NCBI GenBank assembly: GCA_026708545.1
Contig: JAPOUT010000086.1
Coordinates: forward strand, 1 to 41,977
Source: Hyphomicrobiales bacterium
Lineage (GTDB): Bacteria > Pseudomonadota > Alphaproteobacteria > JAPOUT01
DNA length: 41,977 nt
Direction: 5' to 3'
The notes beneath the pieces were generated by a model. The model was given only the letters and a program-made list of their open reading frames with translations. It was not told the DNA's origin and did not search any database. The position numbers and the translations under genes are program-made. Positions 3 to 41,977 of the stretch are shown in pieces. Position 1 is the stretch's first letter, and every line of letters starts with the position of its first letter.

Positions 3-2759
3 TTGTCCTCCAACCTGTGGAAACTCGTCGAGCGGGAGAAACGGATACTCTATGAGGAGCGTCTGGGAATCCCCCGGGTCAATCTGACCGCAATGACCGC
101 GCGCGTTGTCGAGCCGGCGGCGACGGGCGGGAGCGAGACGGTCACAATCATGGCGGACCTGGGCAAGCCGCTGGAAGAGGATGTCACGCTGAACATTATG
201 GTCGCGGAGACGTCAACGGCGGAGTTCGGGGCGGACAAGGACTTCACTTACGGATACAAGGTCTACGAACTTGATGCGGCCACGGGCGAACAGTCGGCGC
301 CTGCGGGGGATGCGACGGAATGCATGGAGGAGACGTGCGCGGTTCCGATTCCCGCGGGCGTGACGCGCTTCGATATCGAGGCGGAGATTCTCATGACCGC
401 CGAGCGGGAGATTCCCGAGTTCATCGACTTCCAGATTGAGGTTCCCGAAGAGCACGCGGACCTGCTGCGGGGCGGCAGCGTGGCGCGGGTGGCCATCGAG
501 GCGCACGGCAACGAGATCGGATTTGCTGCGGACGCGACAACAACGCTTGCGGAGGACAACGAGAGAACGGGAGTCGGGGTGTCCGTCGGCATTGACAGGC
601 CTTCACCTGTGCCGATTACGTTGAATGTCGCGACGGGCGGAACGGCGACAGTGAATGAAGACTACAGGATTGACACCACAACCCTGATAATACCGGCGAA
701 CGCCTCGAGTGCGTCCCTGACGCTGCGGGGCATCAACAACGAAAGGGGCGAAGGGAGCAAGAGCATCGTTCTGACGATCTCGGGCAGCCTGCCGGAGGGC
801 TGGACAATCACCGACGACGAACATACGGTAACCCTCCAAGATGACGACCTGAGCATCTTCTTTACGTCCGCTACGTCGCGCAGAGTGGACGAGCCCGGGA
901 CCGGTAGCAATGCAGATGTCACGGTCGCGGTCGGCATCACCCAGGCGCCGACGGCAGACATCACCGTGAGGGTTGCGGCCGGAGGAACGGGGGAAACCGC
1001 CACTCCGGGCAGCAGCATGGATTACACCTTTACAGGAATGGATTTTACCTTCCCCGCGGACAGTACCGCCCCGCAAACCGCTACCTTTTCCGTCCACCCT
1101 GACAATGTGGCCGAGGAGGACGAGTTCATCGTCCTGACGATTGCCGATGACACCACGACGAACTCGTCGCGCGAGAGGGAGGGCAGCGGCTTCTCGCTTG
1201 GCGGTCCGCACACCGTCACCATTCCGGCGAACGACAACACAGTCGCTTTTGCATCGGATGCGGTAGTGCTTGCTGAAGGCGACGGAACGACGGCAGGAGT
1301 CACGGTGAACGTCAACCGGCCTGCGCCTGTGGATATCACGCTGAATGTTTCGGCGGAGAGTACAAGCACGGCGACAGAAGGAACGGATTACACGATTTCC
1401 ACTCCAAGCCTGAGGATACCGGCGGGTCGGTCGAGCGGCATGATTAGACTGACGGGCCGTGACGATAACATGGGCGAGGGTAACGAATTCATCGACCTTA
1501 GAATCAGTGTGGACGGAACCCTGCCGCCTGGCTGGATGCTCGGTACGGCGACACATCGCGTGACCCTTCAGGACGATGATTTGAGCATCTTTATTTCATC
1601 TGACACGCCGAGCAGTGTGGCAGAGCCGGATTCCGGCACCGAAACGGTCACGGTCACGCTCGGCATCACCCAGTTGCCGAGCGCTGAAATCACCGTGCTG
1701 GTTAGCGCCGCAGGGGAAGGGAACAACGGGCAAACCGCTACCGAGGACGAGGATTACACTTTCCCGGGAGCTAATGTTGTCTTTCGCACGAGCGGTTCCC
1801 TCACGCGGACCGCCACCTTTACCGTTGATGCAGACGATGAAGCCGAATTGGATCAGACCATCGTCCTGACGCTTGCCGACGATTCGACGAATTCCCGGGC
1901 GAGCGAGGGAAGCAACTTTTCGCTCGGCGGCAGCTACACCATCACCATTCCCGCGAACGATAACACAGTCGGTTTCGCATCGGATGCCCCAAAAACGCTT
2001 AATGAGGAGGATGTAACGCCGGGAATTGACGTGGTAATTAATGTCAATCAACCCGCGCTCGAGGACATCACGTTGAATATCGATACCGCGAGCGGAACGG
2101 CGGATGCAGGTGTGCATTTCGACATATCTCCTACAAGTCTGACGATACCGGCGGGGGAGTCGAGCGGTACGATTACGCTGACGGGCATTGATAATGAAAC
2201 CACAGGCGCGCCTCAAATCATACTTACGATCCCGCAGAGCCAGTCTCTGCCGGAGGGTTGGGCGCTCGGCACGGCAACGCACACTGTGAACCTTGTGGAT
2301 GACGAGATTCGCACCGTGACATTGGACTATGGCGGTATAGGCGCGAATATTACGCATCGCCACACTATACGAATGAGTGTCGAGTTGAGCGCGCCACTTG
2401 AAGAAGATATCACGTTAAACCTTGTTGTCGGTGGTACCGAAGGCCGGTATATAAACGAGTGGTCTTTGGATTATAATGTTCTTCCGGAGGATGAGGAGCC
2501 TGGTGTTTCTTTTGGTTCCGGGAATCGTTGTGGTAGTGCTGATAGCCTCATGTGCCAAGTTGCCATCACAGCGGGGCAGAGTTATGTTGATCTCAACCTC
2601 CTCGTCTTCAGTGCTACAATCGGAACGGAAGCGAGCGTCACGGTTGAACTTCCGTCAGGGCATCCTAGCAACGTGCAACTCGGTGACACGTCGAGCGTAA
2701 CTTTCGAGGTTACCGAAAGATGTCCAACTTTCGCTTGCGTGTCGGAGCGGAGAATCTAG
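3..2759 (+). CDS. Calx-beta-like tandem repeat surface/secreted protein, 5' end cut by the window edge
   Basis: 918-aa ORF open at the window start. Repeated motifs include 'xxITLNVxxGTA..DY', 'LxIPAGxSSGxIxLTGxxDN', 'LPxGWxLGTATHxVxLxDD' and '(S/V)VTIPANDNTVxFASDA', typical of Calx-beta repeats. Confidence 0.8.
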   Translation: MSSNLWKLVEREKRILYEERLGIPRVNLTAMTARVVEPAATGGSETVTIMADLGKPLEEDVTLNIMVAETSTAEFGADKDFTYGYKVYELDAATGEQSAPAGDATECMEETCAVPIPAGVTRFDIEAEILMTAEREIPEFIDFQIEVPEEHADLLRGGSVARVAIEAHGNEIGFAADATTTLAEDNERTGVGVSVGIDRPSPVPITLNVATGGTATVNEDYRIDTTTLIIPANASSASLTLRGINNERGEGSKSIVLTISGSLPEGWTITDDEHTVTLQDDDLSIFFTSATSRRVDEPGTGSNADVTVAVGITQAPTADITVRVAAGGTGETATPGSSMDYTFTGMDFTFPADSTAPQTATFSVHPDNVAEEDEFIVLTIADDTTTNSSREREGSGFSLGGPHTVTIPANDNTVAFASDAVVLAEGDGTTAGVTVNVNRPAPVDITLNVSAESTSTATEGTDYTISTPSLRIPAGRSSGMIRLTGRDDNMGEGNEFIDLRISVDGTLPPGWMLGTATHRVTLQDDDLSIFISSDTPSSVAEPDSGTETVTVTLGITQLPSAEITVLVSAAGEGNNGQTATEDEDYTFPGANVVFRTSGSLTRTATFTVDADDEAELDQTIVLTLADDSTNSRASEGSNFSLGGSYTITIPANDNTVGFASDAPKTLNEEDVTPGIDVVINVNQPALEDITLNIDTASGTADAGVHFDISPTSLTIPAGESSGTITLTGIDNETTGAPQIILTIPQSQSLPEGWALGTATHTVNLVDDEIRTVTLDYGGIGANITHRHTIRMSVELSAPLEEDITLNLVVGGTEGRYINEWSLDYNVLPEDEEPGVSFGSGNRCGSADSLMCQVAITAGQSYVDLNLLVFSATIGTEASVTVELPSGHPSNVQLGDTSSVTFEVTERCPTFACVSERRI

Positions 2760-10073: not shown

Positions 10074-11246
10074 ATGGCCACAGAACAAATATCTTCCCGG
10101 CTCGGGCAGAAAATAATCATTTCGACGGTCGAGGAAAAGGTGAAAGCGTTCATCCCTCCGTGCTTGCCCCCGAATCCTGCCGTGGAGATGGGAAAACTCT
10201 ATCAGAAACTCGAAGACGCAAACCGCGCACTAGGGCGGCTTGATGGGGTTGCTTCAATTTTGCCCGATACTCCGTTGTTCCTCTATATGTATTCGTGGAA
10301 AGAGGCTTTGCTCTCGTCGCAGATTGAGGGTACGCAGTCATCGTTTTCCGATCTTCTGCTATTCGAAAGGGAGGAGAATTCCAGGGTGTCACGGGACGAC
10401 ACTCAAGAAGTGCTGAACTATATTGCCGCTATGGACCACGGCCTCGCCCGAATTCGAGGAAACTTCCCAATCTCTCTCCGTCTCATCCGAGAAATCCACG
10501 AACTTCTCCTGTCGAAAGGCCGGGGAAGCACCCAACAGCCCGGTGAGTTCCGGCGATCGCAGAATTGGATCGGCGGCACTCGTCCCGGTAACGCCTCCTT
10601 TGTGCCGCCGCCTCCGGATCGTGTTTTGGACCTAATGTCTGATCTCGAATTGTTTATTCACGCCGACACCCCCGAGATTCCATCATTGATTAAAGCTGGA
10701 ATGATCCACGTTCAGTTTGAAACCATTCACCCGTTTCTCGACGGTAACGGGCGGCTAGGACGACTCTTAATCACTTTTCTTCTCTGTGCGCAGGGCATCC
10801 TGAAGCAACCGATACTCTACCTCAGCCTTTATCTCAAGACGCATCGCCAGCAGTACTATGATTTGCTTCAGCGTGTACGAGAGCAAGGCAGTTGGGAGGA
10901 TTGGCTTGAGTTTTTTCTGGATGGGATTATCGAAACTTCATCGCAGGCGAGTGAAGCTGCGCAAGAAATCCTAAATCTGTTCGAAGTTGATAAAAATCGC
11001 ATTGATAGATTAGGGCGTCCGGCGACATCCGCATTTCGTGTCCACCAACTCTTTCAACAAAAACCGCTTATCGGAATTCCCGACGTAGCACGGGAGTTGG
11101 GCATCTCGATTCCAACAGTTGCTAAGTCGGTACAGCATTTGGAAGACCTCGGAATCGTCCGGGAGTTTACAGGAAGGCAGTACAACCGACGGTTCATATA
11201 CAGTGAATATATGAACATTCTCAGTCGTGGAACAGAACCCTTGTAG
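10074..11246 (+). CDS. Fic family protein (predicted AMP transferase) with N-terminal inhibitory motif and C-terminal HTH-like region
   Basis: 390 aa. Fic motif 'HPFLDGNGRLGRL'; N-terminal 'SSQIEGTQSS' matches (S/T)xxxE(G/N); C-terminal 'GIPDVARELGISIPTVAKSVQHLEDLGIVREFTGRQYNRRF' resembles a winged HTH. Confidence 0.92.
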   Translation: MATEQISSRLGQKIIISTVEEKVKAFIPPCLPPNPAVEMGKLYQKLEDANRALGRLDGVASILPDTPLFLYMYSWKEALLSSQIEGTQSSFSDLLLFEREENSRVSRDDTQEVLNYIAAMDHGLARIRGNFPISLRLIREIHELLLSKGRGSTQQPGEFRRSQNWIGGTRPGNASFVPPPPDRVLDLMSDLELFIHADTPEIPSLIKAGMIHVQFETIHPFLDGNGRLGRLLITFLLCAQGILKQPILYLSLYLKTHRQQYYDLLQRVREQGSWEDWLEFFLDGIIETSSQASEAAQEILNLFEVDKNRIDRLGRPATSAFRVHQLFQQKPLIGIPDVARELGISIPTVAKSVQHLEDLGIVREFTGRQYNRRFIYSEYMNILSRGTEPL

Positions 11247-41227: not shown

Positions 41228-41255
41228 ATGACAAGCAGGGAAGAAGCGGTATAAT
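41228..41255 (+). promoter_or_regulatory. Candidate sigma70-type promoter of the poly-C gene (ATGACA-N16-TATAAT)
   Basis: Consensus TATAAT at 41250-41255 with ATGACA 16 nt upstream; RBS 'AAAGGAG' precedes ATG 41291. Confidence 0.5.
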
Positions 41256-41290
41256 ACCCACGAATAACTTAACCAAAGGAGAAAAACCCG

Positions 41291-41704
41291 ATGAAACTAT
41301 TTCACTCTGCGACCGTTGCAGTCTCCATGACCTTGATGATTTCGCTCGGCTTTGCGTCGGCAGCGACGACCTCAACACCCCCCCCCCCCCCAACACTAAC
41401 TAATTCCCATCCCTGTTTTTCAGTAACCGAAGACCACACTTTAAATCTTCGAGAGACCGGCTCCCAAATCGTTATACAGACCATAGGAGACGCACTTCGA
41501 CAGGGTGGGCTTGCGTTGTTGGGCGAAGGTTTCCAACTCGACTCGTCATTGAGTTACCACTCAGGAGATAATGAAGGAATCGAAGGCGATCTGGATGTCG
41601 TGATTCCCCTATGGAACGGCGGTAGACATGTAATCTTTACGCAACCCGCCTTTGTGTTCTGGAAGGGATTAGAAGGGGAGGAACGTTTTATTAAATTCTG
41701 GTGA
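41291..41704 (+). CDS. Short secreted protein resembling the N-terminal part of an inverse-autotransporter-like beta domain; probably truncated
   Basis: 137 aa. Signal peptide '...LMISLGFASAA', PPPPP tract, then 'LSYHSGDNEGIEGDLDVVIPLWNGGRHVIFTQPAFVFWKGLEGEERF', ending abruptly. Family assignment is by recollection of motif style only. Confidence 0.5.
   Translation: MKLFHSATVAVSMTLMISLGFASAATTSTPPPPPTLTNSHPCFSVTEDHTLNLRETGSQIVIQTIGDALRQGGLALLGEGFQLDSSLSYHSGDNEGIEGDLDVVIPLWNGGRHVIFTQPAFVFWKGLEGEERFIKFW
41378..41391 (+). repeat. Homopolymeric tract of 14 C in the coding sequence
   Basis: Directly counted: AACA-C14-AACACTAACTAA, encoding PPPPP. Confidence 0.9.
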
Positions 41705-41842
41705 TTTAATGATTATGGACAACACACGTGTATTCCATGGGAGGACTGCATTTCATTCCGATGGAGCACGTCGCCTTCAGGGATGTTACGCTGATATTGA
41801 CGGAATGTGGAGCAAGTTGGCTGTTCTCAAGAAGTTTTAATT

Positions 41843-41977
41843 ATGCATTATGATTCCTCCGATATACCCTCGAAAAACCGAAAAATGTTCTCTCTCATCC
41901 AGACAACCTTGAAGACATTTCTAAGCATGAAGAATGACAATACACGCTCTTTAAAAGCCGAAACGAAAAAACCAGGG
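41843..41977 (+). CDS. Possible 3'-partial CDS running off the window (MHYDSSDIPSKNRKMFSLIQTTLKTFLSMKNDNTRSLKAETKKPG...)
   Basis: 45 open codons to the window edge; no family recognised. Confidence 0.3.
   Translation, partial: MHYDSSDIPSKNRKMFSLIQTTLKTFLSMKNDNTRSLKAETKKPG

Follow-up and report, generated by a model that had tools for sequence, protein, structure and literature searches.

Introduction

Slippage switches in large numbers are known mainly from bacteria that live in vertebrates as pathogens or commensals, and in Bordetella fim and Neisseria porA a C or G tract lies between the -35 and -10 boxes. Homopolymeric phase variation is a known kind of switch (PMC6321876, PMC2831843, PMC11868660), with the phasome of C. 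jejuni comprising a median of 20 loci per genome (PMC6321876). A further report describes tracts within the coding sequences of the Neisseria autotransporters NalP and MspA (PMC3723659). Among alphaproteobacteria, passages of a study of the sponge symbiont 'Ca. Luteria ianthellae' describe an inverse autotransporter that is both encoded and expressed (PMC10947273).

Here we analyse a 14-C tract in a window of 41,977 nucleotides (the whole stretch of DNA under study), located on contig C73 of the 2.26 Mb genome, in 139 contigs, of an uncultured alphaproteobacterium. The tract and its relatives in the same genome resemble the poly-C and poly-G loci of Neisseria and C. jejuni in affecting surface-protein genes, in having frame-dependent ON and OFF states and in numbering about 20 loci per genome, but the tracts considered here are longer, at 13-21 bases. 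Two promoter-spacer tracts of the genome resemble those of Bordetella fim and Neisseria porA, although the genes concerned encode surface proteins with a glycine-rich N terminus. Like intimin and invasin (type Ve), the proteins of the main family have an IAT_beta barrel after the signal peptide and a C-terminal passenger; unlike them, they have Calx-beta rather than Ig-like passengers, more than 20 paralogues and a putative homopolymer switch. 'Ca. Luteria ianthellae' is likewise an alphaproteobacterium with an inverse autotransporter, whereas the passages concerned describe neither phase variation nor an expanded family (PMC10947273). A literature search of open-access papers found no slippage-switched inverse autotransporter, and no comparable tract set in sponge-associated alphaproteobacteria. 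A sponge host for the present genomes is conjecture, prompted by the sample code CLI, which may refer to Cliona, one of the hosts in PMC8163846.

Results

A sequence-only reading of the window had described a 14-C tract about 29 codons into the gene of a secreted or surface protein, just past its signal peptide. Direct reading of the sequence agrees exactly on the tract, the interval 41378-41402 that had been assigned to it also taking in bases 3' of the run, and on its placement: the ORF (41291-41704) starts with ATG, encodes 137 aa and has 29 codons ahead of the tract. The frames likewise proved right in every detail. With C14 the frame stays open, as PPPPP-TLTNS; with C13 the product ends after 35 aa at CAA CAC TAA, and with C15 after 37 aa at AAC ACT AAC TAA, both within four codons of the tract. 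The frame is open with C11, C14 or C17, and a change by a single unit puts the gene out of frame, as in an SSR contingency locus; taking known switching lengths as at least 8 C/G, the C14 tract lies above that. The TATAAT and good ribosome-binding site claimed for this gene were both located, the former within a promoter-like match and the latter as AAAGGAG (Table 1).

Table 1. Positions of features in the window, in order of coordinate
Feature	Position	Strand	Basis or remark
Calx-beta passenger of another inverse autotransporter, start lost at contig start, begins SSNLWKLVEREKRILYEER	3..2759	+	Family alignment
Sigma-70-like promoter ATGACA-16-TATAAT	41228..41255	+	11/12 consensus positions; consensus match only
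Shine-Dalgarno AAAGGAG	41275..41281	+	Sequence reading
Leader / signal peptide MKLFHSATVAVSMTLMISLGFASA	41291..41362	+	Same leader on paralogues; presumed cleavage site
C14 homopolymer, putative slippage switch	41378..41391	+	Sequence, frame analysis, run statistics
5' part of inverse autotransporter body	41392..41689	+	Residues 1-99 of 283 aa query; 84% identical to paralogue on contig C106
TAACTAA, two stops 4 bases apart, closing both other frames	41397..41403	+	Sequence
Last ~50 codons of TauD-family dioxygenase, abutting autotransporter fragment	41690..41840	+	PF02668
48-base repeat	41863..41910	+	98% identical to a contig end of the congener

Run statistics covered 413,724 of the 2,261,898 bases, together with a whole-genome pattern search for runs of at least 11; one run of 8 and one of 9 were counted in the bases read, none of 10-12, and 18 of 13-20, these last including the window tract. 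The other 17 lie mostly in adhesin and DNA-modification genes. Because 18 runs of at least 13 stand against a whole-genome expectation of 0.016 (third-order model) or 0.06 (first-order model), with almost none of 8-12, the tract is not a product of chance. Among 41 genomes searched for C/G runs of at least 12, none were found in 26, two other members of the order had few, and a congener gave more matches than this genome. The longest tract of the genome, a C20 run (contig C79, 1548-1567), lies within or after an ORF of about 110 codons, and several long A/T runs adjoin a similar repeated stretch.

The window ORF has more than 20 paralogues in this genome, or 28 matches when fragments are counted. 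A family profile run against all PDB chains matched only invasin (4E1T) and intimin (4E1S), and paralogues match Pfam IAT_beta above its cut-off, at 65 bits (paralogue on contig C106) and 51.5 bits. Because of these matches we classify the family as predicted inverse autotransporters (type Ve, intimin/invasin-like) with Calx-beta passengers. Another member is represented at the opposite end of the window, and the motif with which it begins, SSNLWKLVEREKRILYEER, is the close of the barrel in the family alignment. No relatives were found among viral contigs, and a plasmid search returned only distant inverse autotransporters, with less than 30% identity among the matches listed.

Poly-C tracts after other signal peptides of the genome had been suggested as a check on the reading, and were found in the paralogues. 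In at least eight other family members a tract follows the signal peptide, with ON and OFF lengths mixed, a comparison among paralogues and not among alleles of one gene. The ON copies lie on contigs C24 (tract C14), C106 (C14) and C116 (C15). The OFF copies are those of contigs C113 (C15; 746 aa if C14), C88 (C14; 714 aa if C15), C26 (G14; 1430 aa if G15), C32 (G13; 1524 aa if G12) and C64 (C18), whose gene is cut by the contig end; with that exception their bodies are intact, at 714-1524 codons. Where one copy of a pair is OFF, dN/dS is low, at 0.10-0.16, the value for the copies of contigs C26 and C32 coming from few changes. Signal peptide and body are shared by tract-less homologues, in which the run is absent; one reads STYG-SLPAGG, and it is between STYG and SLPAGG that the poly-G tracts of contigs C26 and C32 are placed.

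Frame closure was also compared across the tract-bearing genes. In most poly-C genes stops in both other frames follow within 5-43 bases of the tract, and most poly-C paralogues and lipoprotein genes have related stop pairs 3' of it. For most of the tested surface genes with poly-C, a stop-to-tract spacing that short is found at 0-7% of codon positions, and early stops in both frames are thus commoner there than chance; as the paralogues are not independent, no combined probability is given across the family. Neither the restriction-modification genes nor the poly-G members showed early double stops in the same test.

The copy in the window stands apart from its family. As assembled it is reduced to its signal peptide plus the first ~100 residues, ending before most of the barrel, and both barrel and passenger, the marks of type Ve, are missing from it; the 137 aa product has no Pfam match because the barrel is cut off. 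Homology to the paralogues ends at 41689, where a TauD tail takes over (PF02668 above cut-off, 30.6 bits, profile positions 235-267), and the junction is 288 bases from the contig end (41977), so that we consider truncation or misassembly of this copy probable. Although C14 leaves the frame open, only a fragment of 137 aa would result, and with the gene cut short the function of this copy is in doubt. Contig C46 starts inside an inverse autotransporter and does not overlap the window gene.

The window copy may therefore be a dead 5' remnant, left when a deletion brought a phase-variable adhesin up against the last part of a TauD gene, with a switch that now controls nothing. We give this even odds. 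The end of homology at 41689 and the TauD tail that follows speak for it, as does the failure to find a further TauD copy in this genome (the last 41 residues were not found in the congener either). On the other side, the junction is close to the contig end and beside a repeat, so that a chimera is equally possible, and the remaining 83 codons have a dN/dS of 0.08-0.14; the loss, if real, would therefore be recent. A remnant in the window can be reconciled with phase variation as the explanation for the family. The 48-base repeat beyond the junction is 98% identical across two species whose adhesins are ~64% alike. Its copy in the congener (stretch L183, 8099-8146) comes after the stop codon of an inverse autotransporter, so that both times the repeat lies at a contig end past a stop codon, and it is perhaps the end of a mobile element.

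Tracts are also found inside or just upstream of four restriction-modification genes. A type III mod gene (contig C38, 4364-4381) has a G18 tract and is apparently OFF at 751 aa, with 974 aa at G19, and a Type ISP gene (contig C119, 16874-16891) has a C18 tract and is in frame, ON, at 1123 aa. The other two tracts each lie six bases upstream of an ATG, namely a G15 run before an N6/N4 methyltransferase-HNH gene (contig C43, 365-379) and a G16 run before an HSDR_N/N6_Mtase gene that is followed by a specificity subunit (contig C132, 431-446), and both come after a similar short leader ORF. A methyltransferase gene with an SSR setting its frame or expression, the arrangement of a phasevarion, is thus present, and the type III and Type ISP genes are possible phasevarions. 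Furthermore, two tracts fall between -35 and -10 boxes, where a one-unit change would alter the promoter spacing, as TTGAC[G13]TATCTCTATAAT on contig C16 (7815-7827) and TTGAC[G14]TATCTCTACCAT on contig C62 (9791-9804), in each case upstream of a secreted protein whose start is rich in glycine, and a promoter-spacer tract of the same kind precedes a classical autotransporter in the congener (stretch L176, 6367-6378).

These promoter tracts bear on a further alternative. Long homopolymers can be slippery for polymerases, and ribosomal or polymerase slippage during expression could give every cell a fixed fraction of full-length product with no switching at all; we consider this very unlikely, since it leaves the promoter-spacer tracts unexplained. 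Slighter still is the chance that the tract is a mere proline-rich linker between signal peptide and barrel, in CCC codons by accident: an in-frame tract does encode PPPPP, at a site where a flexible linker would be tolerable, but the tracts are uninterrupted C in lengths of 13-21 that do not follow multiples of three, intact bodies are found in several out-of-frame copies, two members have poly-G at the equivalent place, tracts also occur in promoters and 5' leaders, and tract-less homologues have no proline linker there. Equally improbable is a sequencing or assembly artefact, for although homopolymers are error-prone and the tracts of contigs C88 (1-14) and C64 are located no more than 40 bases from contig ends, runs of at least 12 are abundant in two genomes of the genus that were assembled independently and absent from most other alphaproteobacterial genomes searched, the tracts occupy biologically specific sites, and shorter C/G runs show a normal fall-off. 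Assembled tract lengths carry some uncertainty, several tracts being near contig ends, and the exact lengths given here may be off by a base.

The congener carries at least 15 tracts, most of them in surface-protein genes, chiefly TbpB-like lipoproteins and classical autotransporters or autotransporter-like genes. It also gives 28 inverse autotransporter matches; that these carry the same tracts was considered and rejected, as only two or three do. One congener tract, a C17 run on contig C80 (stretch L182, 6965-6981), lies at the N-terminal end of a gene for a cysteine desulfurase-like class V aminotransferase, which might be part of a DNA modification system. An FHIPEP export gene (type III secretion or flagellum) is present on contig C52 of the congener (135199-137199), and none was found in this genome.

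An autotransporter-like gene on the same congener contig has the leader MNLFHSATVVVS before its poly-C tract, and this gives a short match (89% over 35 bases, E 3.5e-6 for that genome) to the first 35 bases of the coding leader in the window. The window leader recurs more weakly on contig C57 of the present genome, which holds an intact, tract-less version of the autotransporter-like gene with a different start, MDKTTNKETFIRGGRLRKTSKG. In the lipoprotein genes, judged by eye, a tract and an LTxSxxxDLR-like stretch with stop pairs come before the gene's own lipoprotein signal. The recurrence of the leader on these two contigs and the different start of the tract-less gene suggest that leader and tract moved together between unrelated genes, although we infer the direction of movement. 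The leader-tract segment may accordingly be a portable switch, grafted by recombination onto unrelated surface genes, a proposal for which we see the balance as level. Transfer of SSRs has been proposed for Campylobacter and hardly observed (PMC6321876). At 46171-46771 of contig C57 (stretch L105, ~10172-10772) a decayed-looking leader ORF, MNSFHSATVVTSAA..., of 85 aa precedes the intact start of the tract-less autotransporter-like gene, an arrangement that would fit the decay of a switched copy next to one without a switch.

Discussion

The analysis points to slippage phase variation as the best explanation for this family, with the C14 tract one of about 18 homopolymeric contingency loci in the genome, a reading to which we give a probability of roughly 0.85. 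It is favoured because rare tracts recur after signal peptides, because ON and OFF lengths are mixed, because the OFF bodies are intact and because the congener has a similar set; the tracts in promoters and restriction-modification genes add to this. The idea of a contingency locus, first put forward for the window gene by itself, is thus supported for the family but not for the copy that gave rise to it, which is cut before most of the barrel and continues into an unrelated TauD tail. In general, the tracts are very likely a set of slippage switches at the level of the genus, functional in the family.

As we envisage it from the reading frames, the tract would slip by one base at high frequency during replication. 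Lengths of 3n+2 would join the signal peptide in frame to the inverse autotransporter body, while at the other two lengths a stop within four codons would leave only a signal-peptide stub of ~35 aa. With paralogous adhesins switching in this manner, each cell would display a different combination of surface proteins. In this scheme we infer three things, namely slipping in living cells, expression that follows the frame, and an adhesin role on an animal host. Loss of mismatch repair was considered as a source of instability and rejected, MutS being present in the genome.

Taken together, these observations show a well-known mechanism in an organism and a gene family where it was not expected. 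Judging by the 17 further runs and the kinds of gene that hold most of them, a slippage switch known from human pathogens seems to be in use in an uncultured alphaproteobacterium, and this suggests that bet-hedging through surface proteins and DNA methylation occurs outside the pathogens and commensals of vertebrates. Tract length is a readable signal, and metagenome reads already at hand would allow it to be scored with no need for cultures; with the adhesin family one could ask whether switching follows the individual host, the pressure from phages or the tissue.
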